Assembly (NCBI GenBank): GCA_963971425.1
Contig: OZ020525.1
Coordinates: 17,366,187 to 17,430,186 of the forward strand
Length of the DNA: 64,000 nt
Source: Bryoerythrophyllum caledonicum
Taxonomy: Eukaryota; Streptophyta; Bryopsida; Pottiales; Pottiaceae
Reading direction: 5' to 3'
Shown here: positions 4,190 to 27,599 of the stretch, in pieces
How the letters are laid out: every line of letters starts with the position of its first letter
How positions within the stretch are numbered: the first letter of the stretch is position 1
Program-made: the position numbers and the translations under genes
The notes under the pieces: model-generated
Database searches by the model: none
What the model saw: the letters and a program-made list of their open reading frames with translations, nothing else
Told to the model about the DNA's origin: nothing

Positions 4190-7100
4190 GCCGTATCGAA
4201 GGAGTTTGAATCGTGTGGCTCTCCATTATCATTATTGAAAAAATAGGAACATTTTGGTTGCACACTAGTCAAAATACATGTACTAATTGTTAACCTTAAA
4301 AGCACCATTCATCTGATAAAAGATATGTTTCTAAACACATATTTACTGTTCAAAATATGATGATGATATTGGACCTTTTGATAAAACAACTTTAAAATGG
4401 AAAAAATTAAGAATTTGTAGAGCATGAACTCCTTGCACGGGTCTTTAACCCTGAAGGTACAATGACAGTGTTACACCCAAAACACTTCAAAATTCATGGA
4501 TTCTAGTGCAATGAACAAAACAGGAAATGAAAACTATTATTTTTAGTTTTGACCATAGGATCTCGATTAAGACTTATTAAGTAATATATATACATAAGTT
4601 TCATAATCTTTGACCGTACGGATTGAAAGATAATAGTATTTGAAGTTAAACATATGGTTCATATCCTTCCCTGCGTGCTGTGGATCAGCAGACTTTGACT
4701 TCACTTGGTATCTAATTTTGACACTACAGAAGGTCGAAATCCATAACCATCTTGTTAAAGATGATGTTAGTTCCTTCTACACCAATTTTTAGAGGTAGAG
4801 AACGGGTTTAGCATATTCAAAACAACTGTACAAGGAGTGGAAGTTCCGAATTTGTTAATTCTAGCTGTAATTTTTTGTGAACTTAATATGTTTGAGATTG
4901 GTAGTCCAAATGGTCAATAAAAAGGTTTACACCACATATTGTTGTGGAAAAAATAAAAAGTGAAAAATAAAAAGATATCTAGGTTTTATTTGGAAAACAA
5001 GAAGTTTTTTTGGTACCTTGCCCAACAAAGAGTGACAATGTGTGAAAATGTTTGACTTAGATTGATATGTTATTTTTCACTAAAGACAAGAACTTACTTT
5101 GACATCATTAAGAAAAATAATATTACTTGCGAGTACTGAAAATCTCACATTCAACAGAGTGTCCTAGCAATAGATTTTGGACGTGCTCGACTTGCCTGCT
5201 CTCCCCATTTGAAATTCAAAACTCTACATTTTTTTAACAAATGTCCAAATTAGGTAATAATTGTATTCCCACTAAAGTCTTTGTAATACCTTTCTATAGT
5301 GTAATTTTCAAAGATGAATGTTAGAAATTGACACCATAGGAACCTGACCGAACTTTCAAGAAGCCCATTTTTGACACTTGATCCTTTAGGGGTTAAATAT
5401 GCTACACCCGTTTTGCATCCCTAAACATTGGTATAAAATAGAACTAATATCATTTCTGACAAGATGATGATAAATCTAGATCATGTGTGATGCAATCTTT
5501 TGAAGCCAAGTGAACTTAACCCCTAAGGTACCGTGACAGTTTTATACCAAAAACACTTCAAAATTAATGGATTCTAGTGCAATGAACAAAGAGGGTAACA
5601 AAAACTTTGATTTTTAGTTCTGATCGTAGGATCTCAATTAAGACTTATTAAGTAATACAAGTACAAAATTTCATAAACTTTGACTGCATGGATTGAAAGA
5701 TTATAGTGTTTGAAGTCAAGCAAATGGTTCATTTTCTTCCCTGTGTTTAGTGGATCAGCAGACTTTGACTTCAGTTGGTGTCAAAAAAATTCACTACACA
5801 AGGTCTAAATCTATTACCATCTTGTTAAGCATGATGTTAGCTCCTTACACACCAATTTTTAGAGGTAGAGACGGGGTGTAGCATAAGAAGGTTTACATTA
5901 CATATTGTTGTGGCAAAAATAAAAAATGAGAAATACGAAGATCTCTAGGTTTTATGTGGAAAAGAAGAAGTTTTTTTGGTACCTTGTCCGACAATGAGTG
6001 ACAATGTGTGAAAATGTTTGACTTGGGTTGGTATGCTATTTTTCACTAAAGACAAGAACTATTTTTTGACAACCTGAAGGGAAATAATATTACTTGCGAG
6101 TACTGAAAATCACACTTTCAATAGAGTGTCCCAGCAAAAGTTTTTGGAGGTGCCCGAGGTGCCCGCCCTCCCCATTCAAAATTCAAAACCCTATAATTTT
6201 TTCATCAAATGTCCAATTTAGGAAAAATTTGTTTTTCCACTGAGCTCTTGGTAATGTCTTTCTATAGTAAAAACTTCAAAGTAGAATGTTCGAAATTGAC
6301 ACCATAGGAACCTGACCGAACTTTCAAGAAGCCCTTTTTGGACACTTGGTCCTTTAAGGGTTAAACGAAGGGAATCCAATGAACCTAGGAAAGCAAATGA
6401 ACCATGTTGTCTACTTGCTATTATTGACACCATTGGAACTTGTTACAATCGCTAATAAAAGAAAGGACTTGTACATTCTACAAACAACATAGAACAGAAG
6501 CTCAATCAACACATAATATTAAAGTTGTATAAAAATAAATGTTTACCTCAAAATACGTTGCAGGTGTTAGTGGTACACGCACTTGTGCTTGATGGCGTTC
6601 AACATTTAGTCACCATTCCATCGTTGTTGTTGAACATGTTTTTCAACTCTTCTCACTTTACCTGCAACACATGCATAAAATTTATATGGTAAACTATGTG
6701 ATACAATCTCCTAATTATCTTCGTATTACATATAGCCCAAAATTATAATATTATATGTAAAATTATAATATTAAGTAATATATAAACAAAATTTCATAAA
6801 CTTTAACCGCACGGATTGAAAGATTATAGTGTTTGAAGTCAAGCATATGGTTCATTTACTTCCCTGCGTGCATTGGATCAGCAGACTTTGACTTCACTTG
6901 GTGTATAATTTTGCACTACAAAAGGTCTAAATCCACAACCATCTTGTTAAGCATGATGTTCGTTCCTTGTACACCAATTTTTAGAGGTAGAGAACGGGTG
7001 GAGTATATTCAAAACAACTGTGCAAGGAGTGGAAGTTCGGAATTTTTCAATTCACACTATGATTTTATGTGAACTTAATATGTTTTACATTGGTAGTCCA

Positions 7101-8130
7101 AATGGTCAATAAAAAGGTTTACACCACATATTGTTGTGGAACAAATAAAAAGTGAAAAATAAAAGGATATCTAGGTTTTATTTGGAAAACAAGAGGTTTT
7201 TTTGGTACCTTGCCCAACAATGAGTGACAATGTGTGAAAATGTTTGACTTAGGTTGATATGTTATTTTTCACTAAAGACAAGAACTATTTTGACAACATC
7301 AAGGAAAATAATATTACTTGCGAGTACTGAAAATCTCACATTCAACAGAGTGTCTAGCTAGAGATTTTGGATGTGCCCGACTTGCTCGCTCTCCCCATTT
7401 GAAATTCAAAACCCTAAAACTTTTTGATCACATGTCCAATTTAGGTGAAAATTGTATTCCCACTAAAGTCTTGGTAATGCCTTTCTGTAGTAAATTTTTC
7501 AAAGATGAATTTTAGAAATTGACACCATAAGAACCTGACCGAACTTTCAAGAAGCCCATTTTTGACACTTGATCCTTTAGGGGTTAAATATGCTACACCC
7601 CTTTTGCATCCCTAAACATTGGTATAAAATAGAACTAATATCATTTCTGACATGATGATAATAAATCTAGATCATGTGTGATGCAATCTTTTGAATCCAA
7701 GTGAACTGAAACGAAGGGAATCCAATGAACCTAGGGAATAAAATGAACCATGTTCTCTACTTGGTATTACTGACACTATTGGAACTTGTTACAATCACTA
7801 ATAAAAGAAAGGGGTTGTACATCCACATAAAGGTTATTCTACAAACAACATAGTACAGAAGCTCAATCAACACATAATATTAAAGTTGTATAAAAAACAA
7901 AATTTACCTCAAGATACGTTGCAGGTGTTAGTGGTATACGCACTGTTGTTTGATGGTGTCCAACATTAAATCACCATTCCGTTGTTGTTGAACATGTTTT
8001 TCAACTCTTCGTACTTTACCTGCAACACATGCATAAAATTCATATGGTAAACTATAAGTTAAAAACTTCTAAGTATCTTCATACTACATATAGCTCGAAA
8101 TTTTAATATTATATGTAAAAAGCGGGAACC
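4190..8130. repeat. diverged composite repeats, about 1-1.3 kb units
   Basis: Three long units repeat in direct orientation, starting near 4460, 5528 and 6780. Anchors recur in order: CACCAATTTTTAGAGGTAGAG (4780, 5848, 6975), a block on fast TGTGTGAAAATGTTTGACTT (5040, 6003, 7231) and GGAACCTGACCGAACTTTCA (5339, 6307, 7530). A second module, beginning GGGAATCCAATGAACCTAGG, follows units two and three at 6367 and 7714 and ends near 6720 and 8110. No long frame is conserved between units. These are non-coding repeats, probably remnants of a non-autonomous element or nested duplications. Confidence 0.75.
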
Positions 8131-9018: not shown

Positions 9019-9218
9019 NNNNNNNNNNNNNNNNNNNNNNNNNNNNNNNNNNNNNNNNNNNNNNNNNNNNNNNNNNNNNNNNNNNNNNNNNNNNNNNNNN
9101 NNNNNNNNNNNNNNNNNNNNNNNNNNNNNNNNNNNNNNNNNNNNNNNNNNNNNNNNNNNNNNNNNNNNNNNNNNNNNNNNNNNNNNNNNNNNNNNNNNNN
9201 NNNNNNNNNNNNNNNNNN
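9019..9218. other. assembly gap, exactly 200 N
   Basis: Two hundred consecutive N. The round number suggests a placeholder of unknown true length. The right flank is GC-rich tandem repeat, the probable cause of the gap. Confidence 0.98.
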
Positions 9219-9340
9219 CGCCCGGCCCTAATTGGAACGCGCCCGGCCCTTCATGAACGCGCCCGGTCCAGATTGGTACGCGCCCGGCCCCAAATGCTGC
9301 GCGCGCGGTCCGAAGGCACGCGCCCGCCCCTTGATGTGAC
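9219..9340. repeat. GC-rich tandem repeat flanking the gap
   Basis: Five or six units of about 20-24 bp built on ACGCGCCCGGCCC, separated by AT-richer spacers such as CTAATTGGA and AGATTGGT. The array probably continues into the gap. Confidence 0.8.
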
Positions 9341-9427
9341 GTGGAAAGCCGTCTGACGTGTCGTGCACACGTGTTTTACCAGGGGGTAAGTTGAAAATTT
9401 GATTTAGGGTTCGTAATTTTTTTTTAC

Positions 9428-9515
9428 ACGCAACTGTCCGCCAAAAAGTGCTGTCCGTCCTGTCCGTCCGTCCTACTGTCCGTCCGTCCGCTGTCTTTGG
9501 GCCCCTGTCCGTCTA
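9428..9515. repeat. CTGTCCGTCC microsatellite-like tract
   Basis: Irregular runs of CTGTCCGTCC. The tract begins exactly where the MULE reading frame on the minus strand stops, so it may mark an indel breakpoint that removed the end of the transposase. Confidence 0.7.
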
Positions 9516-12500
9516 TGTAGACAACCCTGAGAATGGCTGTCGAGCTTTCCAGTCAGCATAGTTTGTCTTGAAGGAACCACAGGAACAATGCGGGTTTGTG
9601 CTCACTGAAACGGTATACCTTGATGTGTCGGGAGGAACACCGGAGTCAAGGGTGATTGAGCACCCAAAACCGGGAGGTGGAACATAAGTCACGTCGCGAA
9701 TAGAAGCGACAAGACACTGAGCAGACCCGTAACTACGCCTTTGCAACTCATTGGCGGTAGAGGAAGTGCGTTTAACACACTTTCCATCCCGTAGAGTAGG
9801 GTAGTAGTCAGGATCCACTCCCTCGGGTATAGCAAAAAGACTCAACTCTGGCGGCGTTGTAGAGAACAGACGCCGTGGAGAAATCTGCTGCTTATGTGGA
9901 AGTTGGAAGCCGGCATCTTGGAGATCCGTTATTTCGCGGCGGGTGAGATTAGTGCCTACCATAACGGGCCACACGTCCGGGATAGTTGGCCTCTCTTGAT
10001 CCCTTGAGTCAGGAATAACGAACTTGCGCCGCGTCCCTTTCACACAACGTTCAATGTCGTCGTTGCAGAAGAAGAAATCCATGGGCTCCACTACCCTCTT
10101 GCGAACAAAGTAAAAAGTACCATGGTAGCAAGGCGCAGCAGTAGCCTTTTTGCGTCTGACAATGAGCTCCTCACATTTTGTCTTCGTAACCGCTCTTTGT
10201 GCAAAACATTTCTTAGCCGAGGTCTTAGGGAGTCGAGCAATATGCCACTCGGTTGGAATAGCATTGGTCTCTTGCACAGCTGTAACCGAACGAATTCTCA
10301 CACCTCCAACAGGGGATGCTGTTGGAATAGGCAATGACGGTGCTAGTGGGACGTTCTCGGCTACCGTGGCGTCCTCCTCGTTGATAACAGGCAAGGGGTC
10401 AATGTCATTTCTGAGACGCCTAAAGGAACGTCGAGGACGAGAGAAGTTCACCCTATCTGGACGGTGCGATTCGCCTTCGGCACCAAGTGGAACGTTTGCT
10501 TTCCGCTTGAGAGTTCCAAAAACCTCCTCGCCGGGATTGTAAGCATTACGGGTGCAAAACTCCTTCCCACCTGGCATGGCTATCATGGGTTTGTTGAGAT
10601 ATTGTGGATCACCAGTCTTCCGGGTTCTTCGTTCAGCTGCTCGGAGCCTCAATTCGTCCTTGTTTGGACCCTTGCCACCGTAGTCACCCTTGAGGAATTG
10701 GTAGTAATTCACCACCTGGAGGAATGCTCGAGTATAGTCATCCACGATAGCGGCAAATAGATCACCACCAGTTTTTCCGGAAGCTTGCATCCACTTGTTG
10801 TGGACAGACTCAGCAAGGTTACAAGAAGGCATCTCCGCCAGGTCCGCGTCATTTAGTTTCTAGTGCAATAGACAAACAATGAAGATTGTCAAATGACGAG
10901 TACGACGCTTACCACTTCAAAACTGAGGGTATAGGGTTGTAAAATTAGCTAATGGAAAAATGCAATCATTGAGACACTAAATTGACATAAAGCGGGATAT
11001 TAAAATCAAAAAGATAGTATTGGAAGGATGGAGTACCTCGGTCATGAACCCACCCCATTGACGAAACCGGAAGTGCCAGAACGCTATCCACTGGTCTAGA
11101 TGCCGAAATCCAGATTCGGAAACCGCTTGTGAGGTTATCCACCACGATCTTATGGATGCATGAAGTCGGTCGGCCTCTGCTAGAGAGGTAGCTTTACGAT
11201 ACTGGTGACACATAGCCTTATGTTGTTCACGTAACTTCCCTTCCATGACGTACTTGTCGGCATATTTCTTCATTGATTGTGCCCAATGAAAGAGACAAGT
11301 CCGCTCTCTATCCACCATCTCATTATCCGGGTTTCCGTCGCCGTAAACAATCCGCACCGCCATCCAATTAGCCTGAGCACTATCTGCCATGAATCCTTAA
11401 ATTGAACTGGGGCTCGAGAACGTCGTGGCGGGCCATCACTGCGTTGAGGTTCTCCCAGAACAATACTTGTGCCTTGTGATCCTCGGATTGCATGTCACAA
11501 GAGGCAATCGTCATCACGCGACAATACACAGCATCGTAAACATGGCATGCCATGGTTGTCCACTTGTCGACTCGTTTGACATGATCAAACATCATCCAAG
11601 CAAGCTCCAAATCTTCCCCGGCCTGCATCCGTTTAACAAGATCCACTCCCGAACCAGGCCCGACCTCGGACATCTTAAACACAAAGACTTTATCTCCATT
11701 GTCACCTTGAGAGGGGAACATATTCTTCTGCACAAAAGCCCAATTACTTTGGCCCCAAAGTTTCATGATACTGTCTATGGTGCCGAACTGCCTACGGGAT
11801 CGGAAAGAGACGACCCTATTTCGAATGCTACGAGATCCCAAGTCTTTGCATTGGTCCAACATTGGAGCTAATTCCTCAATAGTAAAGATCTTTTGAGGTT
11901 CTTTCTCTTCACGCAATAACATCTCACCCACTAATTCCTTGCTGGCCTCTAGTACTATTGAGCTTCTAGTGGCCTTGGGAGTCCTCTCAACCTGGTCACC
12001 GATGAGGGAGTTTACCCTCTCCTTGACAGCGCGATAATCACCAATTTTATAAGGGTGGTTGTGTCTACCTAGGTGAATGCAAGCACGGGACGTGTTGAAC
12101 TTGCTATGAACATAGTACACTACAGCGCCACATGTTGAAACGCACGAAGGAGGCTTGTTGCAAATTTTGCAATACAAAGAAGAGCCATGAGGAGCCTCCT
12201 CACCTGGAATGAAAGGTTGAGCCGTAGTGCCCTCGAATTCGCGCTCGTTCTTGTCTGAGAGGCGATTGGGTCGCATTAGGTAGTCACAATTTGTGTTTCA
12301 CATCGCAGGTGGCCAACACACCTTGAGGTCCGAACCTTTAGGCTGTCGTCGTTTTGGATATTGGTGGTGATAGTCTTCGTCCACACGTGGCCATCGTAAC
12401 GTTTGTCCATACCCACCATAGATCGCGCCTGGAGAGAGGATGCGGCCAACGGGGCAGGAGGAAGCTCAAACAAGATGTCGCCATTAAAGTCGTGGGGAAG

Positions 12501-13241
12501 GTGATTCACTTCAACATGGGGAATTTTGTCGTAGTCCAGGGTCTTCAGCTGACTCTTAGAACCGTGACGTTTCTTCAACTTCTTTAAACAGGGTACAATA
12601 CTAACTACACCAGAGGTCCTAGAGGCCTTTGGAGGGCAAGACATTGGGTGTCTAGGGATTAGCGGACTGGATGTGGGGGAGGCAATCCTAGGAGGGCAGG
12701 ACGTCGGCGCTGTACCCCTGGTGGGCCATGATGGTGGCGTCTCATCACCAGAGGAACAAGACATAGGCATGGCAGTCATAGCACGGCGAGAGGCTAGAGG
12801 GGTTGCCTCATCATCTGATGAAAGAAGCTCTACAATTTCAGTCCCTGCTTCGATCTTCACTGACAATCTAGATGGGAGGGGTATGTGCAAGCTGCTAGAA
12901 GATGAGCGACGGGGGGTGACGACGTCTTCTGGGGCAAGGACTTGGGACTCAAGCCTGCCGTAAACTCTATTACGACATGGCGCAAGAGTCCAAACTCTTT
13001 CGGAATTGTCATTCAAACTGAAGGGCATAATTACAGTACGAATAGGCAATCTGGTATCAAAATCGTAAACCTCCTTCTCGATAGAAATGGTATGTTGTTG
13101 AAAGGAAAATCTAACACTCAGGGGCTGACAAGTAACAATTGCAAGACCGCTGCTATCAACGACATACGAGAGAGGGACACCGTCACCGTTGGCGCGTATG
13201 TAGACAATGTCATTAGGGGCACTTTCGGAAGAGGACGCCAT
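9513..13241 (-). pseudogene. Mutator-like (MULE) transposase, copy 1, frameshifted
   Basis: Four minus-strand frames form one gene. Residues 1-321 (13241-12276) are a Ser/Pro-rich leader ending in a zinc-finger-like start (CVGHLRCETQ). The next frame (12276-11380) continues it as NCDYLMRPNR, then CKICNKPPSC and CIHLGRHNH: a GCM/FLYWCH-like cysteine-histidine module. The join lacks one base near 12290. The DDE region follows: VFVFKMSE, an MMFDHV segment and MADSAQANW, interrupted by a second frameshift near 11395. RTCLFHW and RQWGGFMTE precede a good intron (11036-10860; donor GAG/GTACTC, acceptor TTGCACTAG). The last exon (10859-9513) has MPSCNLAESVHNKW and ends in CSCGSFK, the first half of a SWIM finger whose CxH half is lost at the stop. 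Two relics of the same family lie downstream. MULE transposases cut and paste DNA in the nucleus; this copy is inactive. Confidence 0.82.
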
Positions 13242-13259
13242 GGTAAAGAGATCCAGAGG

Positions 13260-14016
13260 GTAGGGAAATGTTGAACATTCTTGGATTATATGGTCCTTGT
13301 GTAATTATACAAAACAATGAATGAAAGTTGGGATGGTCGTTGACAGAATCCCATCATCTATAACGGTGAGGATGAGCCGTGAAGGATTGGTATGAATTTA
13401 GATAAACTTGTTGGAAGAGACGGCGTATCCAAGATAGGAGTGTCAGAGAATTTCTAACGTGGATAAGCATGGGAAGTAAATGTCAGGAATACGGGATAAA
13501 TAGAAATAGCTAACTAAGCCAATGGCCCAATGCAAAGGTAAAGACAAAGTAAATAAAATTCAAAATGCCTTGTTATACACGCGAGTATATGGAAAAAGGT
13601 ATGAGGTTGTAGACACAGATGTGCAGTATGGAATCTTTTTAAAAGAATGCTAAAGTCCCCAGCGCGCTAAGAATTAAAAGCGCCGGCGGAATGTAATAAA
13701 TAGAACAAATTGTTAATCTAGTGGTTACTTATAAGAGCATAATTTTGAAAATGACAGCTTATTAGAAGAGGGGGAAAATATACGGCGATTAACATAGCAT
13801 GCAAGTTGCAATCCCATATTTATAGTTTCAAAATTTCTTTAAAGTAGGGTAGTGTGCATCAACTGAAATAACTTCATTAACTAGAACGTTTTATTGAGAT
13901 TGTCTCTAGAGGCATCCGGAAACATATGAAGTAGATGCAAGACGTAGCATTCTTCTCTGTCGAGTGTTAGAACTAGTTTATAATGTGGTTTGCAAATGTG
14001 ATAGAGTACACGCATT
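13260..14016. other. no gene seen
   Basis: Sequence upstream of the MULE relic. No inverted terminal repeat pairing with the other end (about 9.4 kb) was found by eye. No coding signal. Confidence 0.4.
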
Positions 14017-14430
14017 TTGATAGAGAGGAGGTCAATATTCTTGAGGATTTTGAGAGAGGATAGTACTTTCAATCTTAAGGATCAAATGCTTGACGCAGAA
14101 GTAAGAGCTTTGTCCACCAAAGGTGCAAGAGGTAGAAGGAAGTCTGGGTTACGATTCTCTAGTAGCAAAACTATAAGATGCAATAGACTGAAGAAGACGG
14201 TGAGGCAAAATGAATGTATGGAACTTGGCGATTTCTCAAAGCAGGCTGATGTAGAGGGAATGCTTGAAGGTGATGAAGATGGGACCGGTAGAACTCAGCG
14301 ACCACTGCCAATGGACATGTCAAGCATGCTAGAGACTGTAAAGGAGTTGGAATTCGAATCAAGTGCTATCAAAAAGGACAGTGGAGATCAACCAAGCATA
14401 CTGGAAGAGGTATACTTTGTTTACCACTAA
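14017..14430 (+). CDS. hypothetical open frame, possible exon
   Basis: A 137-residue frame, basic in the first half (RRKSGLRF, NRLKKTVRQ) and acidic or neutral in the second, with no recognised domain. A possible donor, GAAGAG/GTATAC, near 14409 would make the last few residues intronic and the frame an internal or first exon. No partner exon was found. It may be chance; nothing else supports it. Confidence 0.25.
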   Translation: MIERRSIFLRILREDSTFNLKDQMLDAEVRALSTKGARGRRKSGLRFSSSKTIRCNRLKKTVRQNECMELGDFSKQADVEGMLEGDEDGTGRTQRPLPMDMSSMLETVKELEFESSAIKKDSGDQPSILEEVYFVYH

Positions 14431-14859
14431 GCTTTGTTGCATATGTAGAACTGCAATGTTTTATAAAGAGAAGTAGTTTTGCTTTTTATGAGCTTCAATC
14501 CATGCCACACATTTTTAAAAACGCGTAACTAATCTTCTTTCTCACAGAAGAAATTACAGCATGTGCAGATAAGGAATAGGGGACTGAATGAAGTAAAATA
14601 ATCTGCAAACACCAAATGGATTGATTTGTAATGCAATTGGATACCATATGCATTGACCACTTTTCTCATTAATTTTAATGTTACAAACCAACACTTCCTA
14701 GCCCATAATTTATCAATAATTTAAAATATGAATCCTGGTTCAACATGACCTCTCTATCAATAAATTAAAACTACTTCAAGCTTAATTATACTTTAGAGAC
14801 CATGAAGCTCTTCCCTATCTTTTAGCGTCAAATTGTTGGAGCGATGAATGTGGTATAGA

Positions 14860-14970
14860 TATTGACGGAAGGGCTAAAGCATTCGTCCTTGACTTGAGAG
14901 GTTGCTGCGCTGATAGGATTCGAACTGTGGTCACTCGGTTAGTTGGGTGCCCACCACTTTCCTAGCAGGA
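14860..14970 (-). repeat. tRNA-like Pol III promoter, probable SINE head
   Basis: On the minus strand an A-box-like TAGGAAAGTGG (14964-14954) is followed about 28 bases later by a B-box-like AGTTCGAATCC (14926-14916), one mismatch from the consensus. Spacing is right for an internal Pol III promoter. The flanks do not fold into a clear acceptor stem, so a tRNA-derived SINE fits better than a real tRNA gene. Confidence 0.5.
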
Positions 14971-15720
14971 CTTTTCTGTAAAGAGGTGCCAAGTTTATTC
15001 TTCATCGTTGGATGCTTGGGCGTGCTTGTATACGGTAGGATTTTGACCAGCTAATCCAAAAGGGGCATATCCAGTAAGCATCCATTCAACGCGAATAACG
15101 TGTGCAGGCCCGCTGTCTCTCATCCTCCTCGTGTTGGTTTTGAGGTGTTCCTGCCCACACATTGTGAGCTGTGTGACCTTGGGCAGTTGTGTTGTACTCG
15201 AGCATTTGCTAGGATTGCTCGCTTGTCCCCGCGGGTGGAGAAAGTAGCGTCCATTCACACTAACATTTCTACCTTCGATCCTTTGGCGTGGGCTCCGGTA
15301 CTACGGCAAACCTGGTCTGTGCGAAATACCGACTGGAGGGCTGGTCCAAGCACTCCCCGAATCGACTTAACCGGAAGTCAAGAGCTTGGTGTGTTTCGAA
15401 AGGATTCAGCTTTGCTAGTTGCATGCTTTTTATTTCCTGAAGCTCGTCATGAAGCTCTTGCAGGACCTCGGTGGCTATATCCAAAGTGACAAAGGTGAAA
15501 AGTCGACCTGGTCTGTGCGAAATACTGCAAGGTTTGCTGTGGTTTGGGCTGGACAGATGCACGTAGGAGATTATTGGTGATGTTCGTTTGCTGCACGTGC
15601 TATTGATGTCTAGGTTAAATGGTCGTTGATGTCCAGATTTTTGATGTAGATTCCGTGGTCACTAATGTCTTCCTCGCATTTTTTGTTGGTTTCAGTTAGC
15701 AAGTCTTAAGCTAATTTGCT
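14970..15720. other. no gene seen; 20-bp direct repeat
   Basis: ACCTGGTCTGTGCGAAATAC occurs near 15309 and again near 15507 in the same orientation, hinting at an old duplication of about 200 bp. No coding content recognised. Confidence 0.45.
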
Positions 15721-16490
15721 GCCGACTGGAACCGACGGTGCCGACGGCAGCCTTACGGTGATCGGGGCATGGACTCAGGGTTTCGTCTCGGGGACAGTAT
15801 AGCATCGTCGTTCAAACCCTAAAGCAGGAAAACGTTGGTGACGTATAGGTGACTTTAAAATCTACTGCGCTCTTGAGTTTAGGTTTACTGAAATCTGCTG
15901 AGTTTCTCTGAAGGTTTTGAGCACTCAACTGAAGGCGTCGGTGCCGACGCTAGCCCCCTGGAGATCCGAAGTTGGTCTCCGAGACAATGATTTCATAGTT
16001 TATAGATGGTCGCTGCAGTTCCAGTTTCGTTGACGTCTAGGTTTTTTGTAAGTTCATATCAGTCGTCTGAAACATGTATATTGGGTTTGTGTTGTCGCCT
16101 GAAGGCGTCGGTGCCGACGCTTGCTCCCTCGAGGTCCAAAGTTGGTCCTGGAGACCATGATTTCAAAGTGCTCACTGTCAACCTGGAAGCCGTCTGCGAT
16201 GTGAAGATGGTCGCGTCAGTTTCTGAGGACGTCGGCGTCTGGTTTTTTGGAAAATGTAATCGGTCTCGAATAGTATTCTGATTTTGTGTGGTCGCCTGAA
16301 GGCGTCGGTGCCGACGCTTACAAGTTAGAGATCAGATCATGGTTACGTTGATTGCCGATGCGATGATTATGAAGAAATATACTTGAAGTGCATACTCGAA
16401 ACGTCAAAGTTGTCGTTGCGGACGGCAATCAACCTGCGAGTTATTTTTGATATTTGTTGTGGTCAACTGAAGCCGTCGGTGCCGACACCT
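15720..16490. repeat. tandem units carrying GCGTCGGTGCCGACGC palindrome
   Basis: Units of about 170-197 bp start with GAAGGCGTCGGTGCCGACGC at 15931, 16101 and 16298, and with a decayed copy (GAAGCCGTCGGTGCCGACAC) at 16469. Unit bodies share words such as GTTGGTCTCCGAGAC/GTTGGTCCTGGAGAC and ATGATTTCA. A further variant, ACCGACGGTGCCGACGG, lies at 15731. The 16-mer is a dyad of two 7-base arms (GCGTCGG / CCGACGC) around TG. The array lies just upstream of the ParB-like gene. Confidence 0.85.
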
Positions 16491-16706
16491 GCACGTCAAT
16501 GACATGACTTTGGTGCTGGAGACATGGATTTTGAAGTTCTGAACCCATACATCAAAGCCGTGGGTGACGACGGCTGCGAACCTGCAAGTTTTTCCTTCTG
16601 AAATTTTATTTAAACTTGGCTTCTGAATTCTCATATGTTGACACTGCCCACGAGTTGTTTCGACAAAACGTTTTGAGATTGATTTTGTTTTTTTTAAACC
16701 AATACA

Positions 16707-16905
16707 TTTTTGCTAGCTCCTTGATCATGTGAAGCAAAACTGTGGCTGTAGTACTTTACTTAATCTTTTGCCAAGTTCAATGTATATTAATTGATTTACG
16801 CACGGTTTTCATTAGTAATATTAATTTCTCTGACTTGTATTTGATTGCAGTGCAAGATGCCGAGAAACGGTTTCAATTTTTGCTAGCTCCTTGATCATGT
16901 TTTTT
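16707..16905. repeat. 24-bp direct repeat in AT-rich leader
   Basis: TTTTTGCTAGCTCCTTGATC plus four more bases occurs near 16708 and near 16880. The first copy is followed by GAAGCAAAAC, the second by a T run. Confidence 0.7.
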
Positions 16906-16991
16906 TCTTAAAATTACGATTTTGAAGATAAGCGAGGATATTTAAGCCTAAAATATTTTCTAATAAATTTTGATTTGTTTCCTTTTCTTAA

Positions 16992-17007
16992 GCGTCGGTA
17001 CCGACGC
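16992..17007. promoter_or_regulatory. perfect 16-bp palindrome GCGTCGGTACCGACGC
   Basis: The sequence equals its own reverse complement. It is the only fully symmetric member of the GCGTCGG..CCGACGC series, lying 54 bp before the first candidate exon of the ParB-like gene. A protein-binding role is inference only. Confidence 0.6.
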
Positions 17008-17060
17008 CTTTTCTTTCATATCTGCAGGGTTCTTCTAATTTGATTCATTTTGAATTTCAG

Positions 17061-20000
17061 CGCTTGGGCGATTCCCAGAAGGAAGGCGTCGGTGCCGACG
17101 ACTTGGCTGCAGAGGTTAGAAATTTCAACACTTGAATTTAAACTAGAATGTATATCACATCTTAATAAATGAAACGAAAATCTTTAAACCACTTCTTTAT
17201 GCAATTAGCCAAGAAATCGGTGTTTCCTCCTTCATTATGGATCCAAAGTCTTGTCCAAATGTAATGTCGAACTATTTAGAAAGCTAGTTCTTGGACAGAT
17301 TGTTAATTGTTTACTCATGAGTGAATATTCATTTGTTTGCAGAGCATGGCAAATATCGATCATTCAATGTCTGATTCGGAGCACCTCATGGGCTCAAGCA
17401 TGAATGTGGATCATGTGTTGCAGTCAACAGGCGATGACGATAATGAACACGTGGATGCAGAGTCACTTCTTCAACTTAATGAGCACGAGCTTCGTCAAGC
17501 GCAGAAGGTCAACTCCGTTTGTGCCATTGAGTCATTGAGAATTTCTCGAAAGGCTAGTTCACGGTTCGAGATTCCTTTGTGTAGGTTGATTTACATGCCT
17601 CTTCTTCGGCCCACCCTCGACTCAGACATTCGAAGGCTTGAGGGAGAATTTACGCATGGTTACCGGCCTGGGGCAAGTGTATTTTATGTATCAGTTTGCA
17701 ACGATGAGGGTCAGGAACGCTTTGTAAACGAAGAGGACAAGCATGGTTGGGGGCCACAGTGGAACAAGGCAAATGACGAGTTTGAGGCATCTTTGAAAGA
17801 CTCACCCCATTTGCAGATCTTGCAGTCGCGAATGTTATTCATTTGCGATGGGAATCATCGATATAAGTCATGGATGGGGAACATTGAGCGATTGCACCAA
17901 ACGGATCCAAGTTGGCATTTCTCTGTTGATTGTATCTGTCTTAACATAAAGGGAAGAGGTGGACTTGCAATGAACGCGATGCACGATATTAATAGGTAAT
18001 TTTTGCTCATTTATTATTCTTCTCTTACCATTGTCTTGCGTTTGCTTCAATCAATTTATTGCTATCATTTATTTTTCATTTGAAGGGCCACGGAGAATTC
18101 CCATGTGAAGACCAACTTGGTTCACACTCTTCACCGAATCAAAGCAACTGGGAGCCAACCTCTTGAAGCCTTCAAGGACATTCTTAGTGAGGAGGACTTC
18201 AATAAGTGCGTTTTGAATCCGCACAAAGGAAAGACATGGTACCCCCTCACAGTTGATGTCTTTATTGGCTACCTCTTTCGGGTAAGTAAATTCAGATCAA
18301 GGTCATGTTGTTTACACATTGGAATCGTGACGTATTGCTTTCTGGCTCTATTCTAAGTTGTTATTTACATTTAAATAAATAATTATTATAAAATGGTGCT
18401 TACAATCAAGTTCTGTCAAATTCTAGCAAGAGATTGCAGATGCTTCGGACGAGGCTGCAAGGATATATTATGACTCTATTCCGGAGGAGGATAGGGTGGA
18501 TGCCGAAGTCACGAAAGCGATGAGAGAAGCTGCCAAAGCCAAGGCTCAAGTTATTAAAGGCCACTGGTCCAAGTATTCATCAGTTGCCAATCCTAATCTT
18601 GGAGTTGAGTTCATGGAAGAGGTGTTTATACATGGCGTCACCCCCCTTCTCATTTTTGCATCTATTTTTTTACATTCCTTTTAGTAATGCTCATATGTTG
18701 TTTAATTTTATGATATGTAGATCACAAAGCACTGGTGCGCAAATATGAGGCCTGAGATGACTTTGGACAAGTTACAGCTCATTTCTACGACGAATGTCCC
18801 TCCTAATTTCAAGGTTCGATGGCTTCAGTGGTGGAACTCCAGTGCCGCCACCAGGGATGCTGTTCACTTTCCTCCCAAAGGGTTTACTGACAAAGATCTT
18901 GATTCTTGGTTGAACAAAGCCTCTTTCTGGGCAGGGGTAAGTTTGTTCTTCATTTCATCTTTCACGTTGTAGTGGCCTTCTTTCATTTAGTGAATAATTT
19001 TGATAGTTATATATTTCTCTTTTTGGAGTTCTATTCTTTGACATTCTATTCTACAATGTCTTATTCATCAGCTTGAAGTTGTTGTTTGCGAGGAGTTTGA
19101 GGCTATCTGCAAAGCAGACAATTTAGCCCTGAAACTGGATCTTCCAATCAAGGTACTTTCTGCTGACCAATTCGTGGAGGCTTCCAGACTCAAATTCTGG
19201 AATCATGTATTTTCGTCTTTACTTAAAGGCAAGAGCACCTTTTTGCGGTCCAAGTTATTCAAGAGCCATAAGTTTGTGGACTTGGCGGTGAAGCGAGTTC
19301 TCTGGAGGTATGTTTACTACCCGTTGAATTTCATTGCATTCTACTCTTTGCAAATTACAAAAATTTGTTTTTTATCTCCAAGTACTTTGTCAAAGAGCTT
19401 TCAGTGAAGGGCGCTATTGAAACGGATGCCCTTCCACTTTTTTTAAATTCATGGGTGGACAAGAACTCTACCTCATGCATGTATACCCCTGGCCAAATAA
19501 GGTCATGGTCAGTTGTGCATCTTATTGTTGGATGTTGGTACCTTGATTGTTCTCCCTATTTCTGCCCAGCAGAAGAGGAATCAACAAAGGCCTCGTTGGA
19601 TAGGCAAGAGGTTAGTGGTATGCCAACTAGTTCTAGTGCAAATCCAGACCATGACTGTGATGAAGATGATGCGGAAGTTTTTCCAGCTGGGTTGTCTGAG
19701 AAAGAGCGACTGAAGGTCATTGGAAGGAGGGCAAAGCAAGCTGAGAAGATGGAGATGAAGAAGACGAAGGAGAGTTCGAGGGCAATAGAAAAAGCACAGA
19801 AGGCTATAGAGGTTGCTTTCGCCAAAGCCAAGGAAGCCGAAGCCAGAGCTGCAGCATTAGCATCAGGGAGCCCGATTATGCTTGGCGAGGGTTGTGCTTG
19901 TGCAGATGTTACAATCTCTAACTCTCCACGTAATTTGAGCTTCAAGCGCGATGCTTCTTATGCAGGACTCTCCATGTCGAGGTTGCAACTCGTGCCATCT

Positions 20001-21621
20001 CCAGCTCAAAAAGAAGCTGCACACGATTCTCAACCAGTTGATGAGTTCATTTGCAATGCTTCTTTGCAAACAATGGATGCCTATTACTCTGCACATGGAG
20101 CTTTTCCAAATACTTGGGTGGACCTGCAAGCCTTCATTGAAAAGGTAACTTCTCTATTCATTTAAATTTTTGTTCTCTTCTATTATTCCATCAAATTCGT
20201 AATGTAATCTCCTTGTTTTGGGTTTTCAGCACAAGATGGATCGGCCCCGCAAGTTTATTGAGAACTCAAGAAAGAACTTTGGAGTCGACCTTATGATCGT
20301 TGATATTCCGGAGGGCTTGCCTGTCCCTGTGATATCCACGTCCATTCCCTTGTGGAATGCTTTGGCTGACAATTTTCTTGATTCCGTTTTTGACTTTGCT
20401 AGTCACCATGTTCATGATGATGCTGCATTGCTGCTTTTTCATGCCGAGGATGCTCAATTCAATTCCAAGCTCAGAGGATTTATGAGGGCTTATAAGTTCA
20501 AGGTTTTTAAAGAATGGATGGGCATCAACCGCATGCGCTTGACAAATGCCAAGGATCAATCTATAACGGTATTTTTTCATTGTAATTGGTGGCATAAAGT
20601 TTCATATCTTATAATCAAATAGTCATTCCTCGTATTTTACCTTATTTTGTTTTTGCAGACCTTGCGATTCTGTATCAAAGTCCTTGTGCGCAACATTCCA
20701 ACAGCTCCCGTTTCGTCATTTTTCTTGAGATCTGTTGCGGAGTTAGAAGCAGTGGGGATTGACATTGGGGCACATGATGTGCTTCACAACTTTGTCACGA
20801 AGGATTCTCAACACATGAGGGGTGAAATTCCATGGAGGGGTGCTAGAGAGAAGGACCCTATTTTCATGCAGATGTTAATTGAAGCTACCACTTCAGTTGG
20901 TGATATTGTTCTTGATTGTACAGCATCCACTGGTATTATTCTCAGTCTTGCTTCTGCGTGTAATAATTCTGAGGTTGCTCACATTTTCTTAGTTTTTACT
21001 AAATGCACTACTCTCGTAATATGCAGGTGCTTCAATTATTGCTTGCCGAAAGGCTGCTCGGCATATTGTTGCAATGGAGGATGACGAAGAGATTTTTATG
21101 GCCATCCTTCAACCCCTTATTGTATCTGCTGCTAATGAGGGCTTGAAGAAGCAACGCCTTGATTTACCCGCTTCTAGTGACGAGGATGAAGATGATAAAG
21201 ATGAACCTGTGGCGGAAGTCGTGCGTCGCAATTGTTTCTGTACGTAAGTCCTGCTTTTTTGAATTCTAAATCTCTTGATGTTACCTTAGACTTCAATTTG
21301 CATCTAACTTGGTATTGGTTCTCTTGCACTTGAATCTGCAGCTCAGCCTTGACTTCAAATGTTCAACATCAAGTCCGGCAATCAAGTTTGTGCTTTTCTC
21401 CCGAGCAGCCGTTCGTTTTACCAGTTTATGCTGAGGCAGTTGCTCAAGCTTCTCTTCTTTCTTCTCCAATTCGTGTTGCTTCTTTTTGTTATTCTGGTAA
21501 TCCCAGGGTTTTGCAGTTTCTAGATGTGTGTGCTTTTGAGGAGGCTCTTACTCCTGCTTCTCACTTACCTAGTAGGGATGATCCTTCTGGATCCTCTAGT
21601 TCAGACTCCTCTCTACACTGA
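17061..21621 (+). CDS. ParB-like domain + beta-class DNA methyltransferase-like fusion protein
   Basis: Exons read here: 17061-17114 (uncertain), 17343-17995, 18086-18281, 18427-18621, 18721-18936, 19072-19307, 19383-20144, 20230-20568, 20659-20932, 21027-21243 and 21342-21621. The first in-frame ATG in the main exon is 17346; an upstream start exon may exist. From it the product is about 1,120 residues. Residues about 85-230 resemble a ParB N-terminal domain, with FICDGNHRYKSW (DGNHR at 168-172) and DINRATENSHVKTN. Residues about 580-640 form a charged Ala/Lys/Glu helix, likely coiled coil. The C-terminal part follows beta-class N4/N6 methyltransferase order: a motif IV position reading VDIPE instead of DPPY (near 777), then DPIFMQMLIEA, GDIVLDCTASTG (motif I, near 950) and IVAMEDDEE. 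All intron phases agree except 19307/19383. The architecture matches phage and bacterial ParB-methylase fusions. Catalysis is doubtful; function is unknown. Confidence 0.72.
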
Positions 21622-22163
21622 CATAGTTCTATCAGGGATTCCGGTCAAGCTTTTCAGAGCTCCGCATTCGTAAAACACTAGTGTCGTATTCTTGCAACTA
21701 CATTTTTGTAATTCTAAACTTCTTCCATATATCCTATAATTTTGTGGTATAAGTTCTGTGAACCTTTGGTGATAGTATTGAGTCTTCTTGAATGTGTCCA
21801 TTGAATATCTTTATTACATATGTCCATTGAATATATTATAGTTCTTTTATGAATTCAGAGCATGAAAATGCTATAGTGTTAGATTGAATCTTGAATTTAT
21901 TTCCCTACCTAAAATTTTATGCGCTTGGGATTATTCTAAATTCCACTACTATTTTGAACTCAAATATGTGGTGATACTTTACAATTTGAACTTGCACTGC
22001 ATTACTATATTTTTTTTATATTACTGTAGTATGAAATTCATGTTGCATTGCCACGGTAACAGAATGTATTTTACTTTTGGCAATAGGAGATTCCGGTTTC
22101 AAAACATGTTGCGTACCATTTTCCTATAAGTGTAGTTTATTTCTTAAAAAATTCAACGCTAAA
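21622..22163. other. 3' flank of the ParB-like gene, no gene seen
   Basis: AT-rich sequence after the stop codon at 21619-21621, presumably 3' UTR then intergenic. No clear polyadenylation signal was singled out. Confidence 0.4.
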
Positions 22164-22796
22164 CCACGGTAATAGGGGCACTTTTGGGTGCCACCACATG
22201 TTGAGTTGGTTGATTTTTTTCCTAGAAAAATCTGCTCTCTACTCTCCGCTCTCCGCTCACTGCTCAGATATGAGCATTTCCCCATTCAGGCCCACTTCGT
22301 AGAAGCATGTCGTCTCTACTCAAAGTCCTAGCAGCTCCACGCGCCAATGGAGGATGCCCGCCTCCGCACCCTCCCACTACAACAACTCACCGTCTTGGAG
22401 CTTGGGCGACTTCGTGATGCAATGCAGGACGACCGCAACAGGGAGATCAAGGTTGTTCGTGGAGATCTGCTGCCGTTGCGTGCAAACGAGGTGTGGGTGA
22501 CTCCCGCCCTACGCATGCAGAGTACACACGTTCTAGGTGGTCCTCCCCATCTCCTCCATGTTTTTGTCCCTATTCGTGGTTTTTTTGGTTCTTCCATATT
22601 CTAGTTCCTGTTGTACGGACCAAGCTATTTTGCGTGCCTAATTTTGCGAGCTGCGAGCTACGAGCCTAGGATCGCGAGCCTCGTTGCCAAAATTTGAGTT
22701 CTTAATTTGGAAAAGGCATTGAAAAGTAAAAGTTTTAAGGTTTTTTTAGAATGACATTGGTTAAATGCATTAAATTAATGGACCTATTACCGTGGA
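22164..22796. mobile_element. TIR element with a possible captured exon
   Basis: Bounded by a perfect 13-bp inverted repeat, CCACGGTAATAGG at 22164 and CCTATTACCGTGG at 22784-22796. Inside lie a GCTC-rich stretch (CTCCGCTCTCCGCTCACTGC near 22236), an exon-like frame (22347-22490) and a GCGAGC-rich stretch with CCTAGG (22630-22690). The right half recurs in inverted orientation at 30439-30650, so this is a family. No transposase is inside; it is non-autonomous. I could not identify a target-site duplication. Confidence 0.6.
22347..22490 (+). pseudogene. exon-like fragment inside TIR element
   Basis: Forty-eight codons from an ATG to a possible donor AACGAG/GTGTGG, phase 0. The product is charged and helix-prone (LELGRLRDAMQDDRNREI). 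I do not recognise the parent gene. Its place between the GCTC-rich and GCGAGC-rich blocks mirrors the GTP cyclohydrolase fragment at 32205, suggesting capture of a first exon by the element. Confidence 0.35.
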
Positions 22797-25930: not shown

Positions 25931-26770
25931 GAAGAATACTTTTTGGTCATAAAAATAATGTCTGAGGTAAATTTTGCACGCTCCAACCACTAAAGAGGTG
26001 CCGACATCGGCACCCTTTTACAGAACCTCTCCTATATTTAGAAAGAAACCTCTTAAGGGGTTGCGGACATCGGCTCTTTACAAGAGAATTCATTCTACAT
26101 ATGAAAAAAAAACCTTCTAAAGAGGATGCCGACATCGGCATCAAACTAGAAGGTCATTTGAATCTCTAGAAAAAAACACCTTGATATGGAATGCTGCCAT
26201 CAGCACCTTCTAAAACACCTTTCCTATGTTTTGAAAAAAGAACCTTTAGGGAAGGTACAAACATTGGCACTCCATTAGAATTTAGAAGGCCCTTCATATT
26301 TTTAAATAGACAACCTCAAATGGGGTTGCCGACATCGACACTCCTTTGAAGGATCCTTCTTATGTTTAAAAACAAAACCTCCAAAGTTGACCCCATTATC
26401 GACATTCCTCTAAATATCCCCTCCTATAATTAGAAAAGAGACCCCCAAAGGTAATGCCGACATCGGCACTCGTTTAAAGAAGCCTTCTCAATTAAAAAAT
26501 CAATCTTTACAAGAGTGTCGACAATGGCATTCCTCTAGAGGGTCCTTTATATCTTTGAAAAGGAAATGTGAGACGTCTAAGGGAGGTGCCGACATCGGCA
26601 CCCCTAGGACGCCCTTACATTTTTATCAAAAGAACCTCCAAAAAGAATTTTAGACATTATCATCCCACAAAAAGACCTTTTCTATTGTTAAAAAGAGAAC
26701 CTCTAAAGGTGGTGCCGACATCGGCACTCCACTAGGCACTCTTCTTTTGTTTACAATGTGAACCTCTAAA

Positions 26771-27160
26771 GAGAGTGCCGACATCAGCACTCTACAAGAA
26801 GGCCTTTCTAATCTTTGAAAATGGAACTCCCAAAAAGAAGTGCCGACATCGGCACCCTCTGAAATTTACATTCACATTCTAGAAAATTTTGAGAGAATTC
26901 TAGAATGGTATCACAATTTATCATCCAACACTCTAACAGTAAGTTATCAACGGATGAAGTCTTGGAATTTACTACTTCATCCATTGATAACTTATTCTTT
27001 GATTGTTGGATAATGAAGTGTGATACCATTTTGAAATTCTCTCAATCAATCTTAGAGCGTGAATGTAAATTTCAGAGGGTGCCGATATCGGCACTCCTTT
27101 TTAGTAGTTCCATTTTAAAAGATTGGATAGGCCTTCTTGTAAAGTGCCGATGTTAGCGCC
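26771..27160. repeat. 390-bp inverted repeat (hairpin 1)
   Basis: The arms pair over about 180 bp: the palindrome unit at 26773 pairs with 27141-27160, CTACAAGAAGGCC near 26792 with GGCCTTCTTGTAAA, the second palindrome near 26840 with the one at 27080, and GAAATTTACATTCAC (26861) with GTGAATGTAAATTTC (27058). The inner arms carry TGGTATCACA and TGTGATACCA. The loop is near GGAATTTACTACTTC. A transcript would fold into a long double-stranded RNA. The structure is foldback/MITE-like. Confidence 0.85.
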
Positions 27161-27400
27161 CCCTAGAATTTACACTCACACTCTAGAAAATTTTAAGAGA
27201 ATTCCAAAATGGTATCACACTTTGTCATCTAATGCTCCAAGAATAAGTTATCTTTGGATGAAGTCTTGGAATTTATTACTTCATCCGTAGATAACTTATT
27301 CTCTGAGTGTTGGATGATGAAGTGTGATACCATTTTGGAATTCCTTGAAAAATTTCTAAAGCATGAATATGAATTTTAGGGGGTTGCCGATGTCGGCATC
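27144..27400. repeat. inverted repeat (hairpin 2), paralogue of hairpin 1
   Basis: Same layout as hairpin 1: a palindrome unit at each end, CTAGAATTTACACTCACACT paired with the ATGAATATGAATTTTAG side, ATGGTATCACAC paired with GTGTGATACCAT, and a centre near GAATTTATTACTTCATCC. It shares its left palindrome with the right end of hairpin 1, so the two overlap by about 17 bp. Confidence 0.8.
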
Positions 27401-27599
27401 CCCTTTAGAGGATTTCTTTTTAAACATAGAAAGGGCCCTCTTGTGGATTGTCGATATCGGCACTCTCTCTGGAGATTTTTTTTAACAGACAGGAAGGACC
27501 ATTTAGATGAGTGTCAATGTGTCCCTCCCTTAAAGATTCTCTCAAAGAATAAGGGAAGAGCGTCCTTAGGAGTGTCGATGTCGGCACCATTTTTACAAG

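Follow-up and report, generated by a model that had tools for sequence, protein, structure and literature searches.

A predicted ParB–methyltransferase protein encoded by putatively Mutator-like transposons of a moss, and the repeated palindromes beside its gene

The gene and its carrier transposon

The stretch of DNA analysed here, hereafter the window, comprises 64,000 nucleotides of the moss Bryoerythrophyllum caledonicum (contig OZ020525.1, positions 17,366,187 to 17,430,186), part of a chromosome-scale contig (C14) in a 437-Mb genome, and it holds a transposon copy that lacks its left end (9528-22283, delimited by alignment to copies in C11 and C8). Two genes lie head to head in it: one on the forward strand (17346-21621), whose protein is predicted to join a ParB-fold domain to a DNA methyltransferase domain, and, on the reverse strand, a broken remnant of a Mutator-like transposase gene (9528-13304), with a short palindrome repeated between the two. 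The ParB–methyltransferase gene is the accessory (second) gene of a family of 11-13 kb DNA transposons, and the reading given in the initial annotation, of a long-resident or domesticated single host gene, gives way before the dispersed transposon copies and the transposase on the opposite strand; its alternative suggestion, a link to mobile elements, holds.

A genome search with the window protein, in which 41 of 5397 candidates were scored so that its counts are lower bounds, gave at least 165 exon matches. The first coding exon was matched at no fewer than 28 loci, that of the window among them, and the palindromes added five (L041-L044, L047), making at least 33 in total. The copies retain introns, a sign that they were duplicated at the DNA level. 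Those on C14, C11 and C8 agree with the window at 97.6-98.9% in the blocks of 9528-22283 that align, after which the match ends and the flanks differ; they have the same right end, the terminal inverted repeat at 22240-22283, and the C11 right end matches the inverted C8 left end at 91% over 34 bp. The C11 (12.8 kb) and C8 (12.3 kb) copies end in inverted repeats and are flanked by target duplications of 9 bp, CCCCGTACT in the one and GATCCAAGG in the other, and a more distant copy of about 11 kb in C9 follows the same plan, so that the duplication is exact in two of the three copies read at both ends and agrees at 8 of 9 positions in the third. The shared 12-13 kb, the inverted repeats and the 9-bp duplications mark a DNA transposon, and dispersed copies with target duplications rule out a single-copy host or domesticated gene.

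Neither the part of the window left of 9528 nor the 10 kb preceding the window was found to contain the leftmost 573 bp of the C11 copy, the left end of the window copy having been lost beside an inserted 0.77-kb element and an assembly gap (9019-9218). That inserted element, of which the window contains a piece (9219-9527), has GGGTTGT...ACAACCC ends and internal short repeats; it also interrupts exon 10 of the C4 copy (L040), and over 312 bp this insert and the window piece agree at 99%. To the left of the C11 copy (L031:2-1546) lies an open frame resembling gag with zinc knuckles, and this copy may thus sit in or beside a retroelement.

The head-to-head layout was seen in loci of the three subfamilies A, B and C that are described below. 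In the window the transposase gene is recognisable by comparison with the C11 copy, its first exon falling in three open frames; the transposase exons encode 774 + 509 amino acids in the C11 copy (subfamily A) and 715 + 487 in the C9 copy (subfamily B), on the strand opposite to the ParB gene, and the two transposases are 48% identical. Read by eye, the protein has the residues D, D and CxxH and a C-terminal CxC...CxH tail, which we take to be the pattern of Mutator-like transposases; the SWIM profile PF04434 matched it weakly (E 0.13), and a MULE domain was without a Pfam match in it. Target duplications of Mutator-like elements (MULEs) measure 9-11 bp, and it is on the D/D/CxxH pattern together with the 9-bp duplications that we call the carrier Mutator-like, with reservation.

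The accessory gene was read as ten coding exons and nine introns, with a product of 1114 amino acids if a weak donor at 19288 is used. Exon 1 (17346-17995) holds the ParB-fold domain (about residues 75-216, placed by the predicted fold of an aligned relative), exons 2-6 (18086-20144, namely 18086-18281, 18427-18621, 18721-18936, 19072-19287 or 19307, and 19383-20144) the middle part, exon 7 (20230-20568) the region of methyltransferase motif IV, exons 8 and 9 (20659-20932 and 21027-21243) the motif X/I region (GDIVLDCTASTG), and exon 10 (21342-21621) the C-terminal tail and stop codon. Intron 5 seems to be spliced near 19308 in the C11, C9 and C4 copies; in the window copy its acceptor is altered, differing from that of other copies, and use of that downstream donor was rejected there since a frameshift results. 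Position 17061, the start proposed in the initial annotation, could belong to a 5' exon without an ATG. All ten exons occur in the same order in both the C11 and C9 copies, which argues that the model is not due to chance and agrees with the nine or ten spliceosomal introns first proposed, nine being the number found; exon 6 is partly deleted in the C8 copy, exon 10 is interrupted in the C4 copy, and exons 1-5 were recovered in most of the remaining loci examined.

Domains, subfamilies and selection

As modelled, the protein carries a ParB-fold domain and, further on, a methyltransferase domain of the beta class (N6/N4). With approximately 8000 candidates scored per search, the database relatives that came to light are two proteins, both from the moss Ceratodon purpureus: P0001 (1147 amino acids, 34% identity over 47% of the query) and P0002 (661 amino acids). 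The predicted structure of the N-terminal domain of an aligned relative has the ParB/sulfiredoxin (ParB-CTPase) fold, and at the place of the ParB nucleotide-pocket motif, with its essential arginine, stands DGNHR (17847-17861, forward strand), each of whose five residues is invariant in all 14 aligned rows; the ParB-type DGNHR segment of the initial annotation is thus borne out. In a ParB–methylase fusion, changing this arginine to alanine abolishes binding of nucleoside triphosphates (PMC12704722). By sequence, ParB went unmatched in Pfam, PHROGs and PDB profile searches, and PF02195 had no match in scans of the window protein, P0001 or subfamily E, nor in the whole genome. In a structure search of viral proteins a DNA methylase from Mycobacterium phage Vincenzo ranked sixth, and the best 15 of 264 matches in a tblastn search of phages with P0001 span the methylase part only.

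Copies of the gene fall into subfamilies. In exon 1 identity is 64-70% between the window copy (A) and those B and C copies with which it was compared, and 77-86% between B and C, where a 56-residue piece accounts for the highest figures; over all exons of the ParB gene, A and B share 48-78%, or about 62% when weighted by length. A supposed subfamily D (L041) was rejected, its exon 1 being 93-95% identical to C copies, and is counted as C. Searching with P0001 added at least eight further loci 62-64% identical to the Ceratodon protein (subfamily E) and others at 39-44%; one locus each was analysed from the distant subfamilies, L050 for E, L051 for F and L052 for G.

The PF01555 (N6_N4_Mtase) profile matched the window protein below its cut-off (residues 927-974, in the region of exons 8-9; E 6e-4, 20.3 bits) and passed it in relatives, namely P0001, over the whole domain (E 4.9e-7, 30.4 bits against a cut-off of 26.7), and the subfamily E locus (L050:8748-9194; E 3.4e-7, 30.9 bits). 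Together with the predicted ParB fold, these matches uphold the fusion of ParB to a beta-class methyltransferase proposed in the initial annotation; the order of motifs given there, IV and then X/I, also stands, but motif IV itself reads D-I-P-E in the window where D-x-P-Y/F is expected, and the catalytic aromatic is gone. The same departure (DIPE or DVPE) was read in single copies of A, B and G and in two of C, while the aromatic is kept as DQPF in the single E copy and as DTPF and DQPY in Ceratodon; of the five subfamilies read, A, B, C and G thus have glutamate in place of the catalytic aromatic, and E keeps the aromatic. Motif I has the form DxxASTG, which departs from the usual one.

The ratio of nonsynonymous to synonymous substitution rates (dN/dS) is 0.055-0.063, at a dS of about 2.4, in the three of 12 B–C pairs for which dS could be computed (L043 with C copies), and 0.16-0.39 within subfamilies; several copies of the gene carry stops. 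The methyltransferase fold appears, from these comparisons, to be kept under selection despite loss of the catalytic aromatic.

Palindromes matched to subfamilies

The region between the two genes contains a palindrome of 14-16 bp, GCGTCGGYRCCGACGC. The window has five copies of its core CGTCGGYRCCGACG, all between the genes, at 15936-15949, 16106-16119, 16303-16316, 16993-17006 (a perfect palindrome centred on GTAC) and 17087-17100 (shortly before the coding start), whereas the remaining 51 kb contain no core; a degenerate site at 16474-16487, with two mismatches in 18, continues a period of about 170 bp, the spacings in this repeat family (D1) being 170, 197 and 171. Neither this array nor the loss of the catalytic aromatic figured in the initial annotation. 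Every one of the 26 loci whose sequence extends into the upstream region (L003-L028, among them the window copy) has at least one core there, and none was found in L029 and L030, whose sequences stop short of it. Genome-wide, GCGTCGGYRCCGACGC has 98 sites against one for the reversed pattern; the 50 of these that were listed form 24 clusters: the gene lies no more than a few kb from 21 of them, another belongs to a truncated copy (L048), and two are unexplained single sites. The latter two (L045:2289 and L046:2358) are lone palindromes with no element found around them, although a repeat of 763 bp is common to L046 and to sequence lying beyond the C9 element. In a set of 35 non-redundant sites, conservation is restricted to about 16 bp and falls to near zero beyond; the set was chosen at up to two mismatches, a criterion biased towards the core but not towards the flanks. 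The A–C motif is constant although the A and B transposases are 48% identical and the ParB genes about 62%. Spacing between sites is often about 170-200 bp in A and B, near the nucleosome repeat length, and about 75 bp in E.

The distant subfamilies have palindromes of their own: GTTCKGYRCMGAAC in E (16 matches at up to two mismatches in L050, against a shuffle mean of 0.18), the last two of which lie in an intron between coding blocks; TCCTCGGYRCCGAGGA in F (six at up to three mismatches in L051, shuffle mean 0.03); and CGCCGGYRCCGGCG in G (13 at up to two mismatches in L052, shuffle mean 0.01). All four palindromes share the centre GYRC and differ in their arms, and each of 15 stretches scored at up to one mismatch holds its own motif or none, never that of another subfamily. 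The F motif has 214 sites genome-wide against none for the reversed pattern; among the 50 listed, 12 are directly upstream of three F-like gene loci and five more within about 10 kb. Seven F-site stretches were examined, four flanking gene loci and three (L055, L056 and L059) being short A/T-rich tandem arrays with units of about 88-98 bp that contain the F palindrome TCCTCGGTACCGAGGA or close variants. With sites in arrays away from the listed genes, the F motif also occurs outside copies that carry the gene, and these arrays could be non-autonomous partners or a satellite exploiting the F protein. The other four stretches form two pairs (L053/L054 and L057/L058) whose palindromes, about 14 kb apart, flank two F-like gene loci; L053 and L057 resemble the arrays, but in L054 and L058 the likeness is mostly limited to the palindrome.

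Self-recognition, competing explanations and known systems

Arabidopsis VANDAL elements are Mutator-like. Their accessory protein VANC, the nearest precedent that has been put to the test, acts sequence-specifically: it binds motifs that recur in the non-coding stretches of the element encoding it and lifts silencing there, and motif and protein change together (PMC5735166, PMC10398659). We consider it probable, by analogy, that the moss protein is an element-encoded, ParB-type self-recognition protein with a VANC-like action on the palindromes of its own element. A ParB-fold protein encoded beside repeated palindromes is their most economical binder, and arms that change with the protein are as expected for a DNA-binding protein and its sites: judging from the sequences compared, the motif is unchanged from A to C and differs where the ParB protein has diverged most. 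The protein would dimerise and bind the palindromes of its own subfamily through its ParB-derived part, which would restrict its action to its own element, and, less surely, the bound protein might keep the central promoter region open against host silencing, as VANC does. In A, B, C and G it would probably act by binding alone, while in subfamily E, where the aromatic is kept, it may also methylate its own element.

Several points weigh against this proposal. No helix-turn-helix was identified, the stretch after the ParB domain being modelled at low confidence; the co-change of protein and motif is based on one locus each of E, F and G; the contrast in divergence between transposase (48%) and ParB gene (about 62%) is modest; 33 of the 50 listed F sites are not within about 10 kb of a listed gene locus; and the anti-silencing step rests on analogy. 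Moreover, the transposase and the ParB gene move as a pair, and the palindromes could therefore be the transposase's own, as its binding sites or as internal transposition enhancers, with the ParB–methyltransferase acting otherwise. The sites are element-specific, as this would have it, and F sites, about 14 kb apart round two gene loci and in 88-98-bp arrays, could be terminal or non-autonomous parts; yet the terminal 70-80 bp of the A and C9 copies have no palindrome site, the A–C motif stays constant while the transposase falls to 48%, and canonical ParB proteins bind 16-bp palindromes, all of which make a transposase role unlikely.

A simple autorepressor, binding its own promoter region to limit expression of the transposase and of itself, is possible but doubtful: sites lie between divergent genes, one of them just upstream of the coding start (17087-17100), and some E sites are intronic, but the sites, which can number a dozen or more across 1-4 kb, exceed the need of an operator, and the retained methyltransferase domain is left unexplained. 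Rather unlikely, too, is a nucleotide-gated clamp resembling ParB–parS and operating in the plant nucleus, which would load at its own palindromes, spread and shield the element from host silencing, the methyltransferase fold having turned from writer to binder in most branches; were it true, the fourfold match of protein branch to arms, with GYRC fixed between them, would amount to a natural code by which self-specific recognition of DNA can be re-targeted. The Ectocarpus authors propose for a similar protein that it is an active methyltransferase of N4-cytosine or N6-adenine and marks its own element (PMC12477816), and motif IV in the E copy (DQPF) and in Ceratodon (DTPF, DQPY) would suit one, but the D-I/V-P-E of the A, B, C and G copies makes this reading improbable here. 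The unusual form of motif I tells against it as well. Introns and purifying selection would fit a domesticated host chromatin or defence gene; with dispersed near-identical copies, target duplications and stops in several copies, this explanation is hardly credible.

The self-recognition that we favour has partial precedents. ParB–methyltransferase accessory proteins on algal transposons are already known, in Ectocarpus (Sola1-1_Ec32, 1104 amino acids) and in green and red algae; the Ectocarpus protein, likened here by its description, is of the same kind and is proposed to bind and modify its own element, but rides a Sola-1 and not a Mutator-like element (PMC12477816), and a further contrast is that moss branches A, B, C and G have lost the catalytic motif that E has kept. 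The available text of that report proposes self-binding and modification and names no binding site, and the word palindrome is absent from its main text (PMC12477816); the moss elements supply candidate sites, and four protein branches with four different repeated palindromes make self-recognition directly testable. With VANC the moss system shares a motif repeated in its own non-coding regions and differing between families, whereas the domains of VANC are DUF1985/DUF287 and its motifs are 8-9 bp long, and the text available describes neither a ParB nor a methyltransferase domain in it (PMC5735166). DUF1985 had no Pfam match in scans of the window protein, P0001 or subfamily E. Bacterial ParB–parS offers the ParB fold, the conserved nucleotide-pocket arginine and palindromic sites near the gene, and parS is similar in length to the moss palindromes, but it is a segregation system, which the moss gene is not, and a helix-turn-helix is the element not identified in the moss protein. 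Phage ParB–methylase fusions likewise join a ParB fold to PF01555 (PMC12704722), but have prokaryotic hosts and are not on a transposon, and retrotransposons of Symbiodinium and Klebsormidium are mobile elements with a captured DNA methyltransferase gene, of the C5 cytosine class, unlike the moss element (PMC5890265).

What appears new, judged by the open-licence PubMed Central papers searched, is the Mutator-like carrier in a land plant (a moss), the loss of the catalytic aromatic under selection and the subfamily-matched palindromes, although works cited by PMC12477816 may describe such palindromes. If the proposal is right, self-specific recognition has arisen in plant transposons on at least two occasions, from VANC domains and from a fold used in bacterial chromosome segregation, and selection has retained a methyltransferase fold that lost its catalytic residue. 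Elsewhere in the window, large diverged direct repeats (83-92% identical, with units of several hundred bases) occupy 4445-8120, and a near-symmetrical inverted repeat of about 700 bp lies at 26761-27477.

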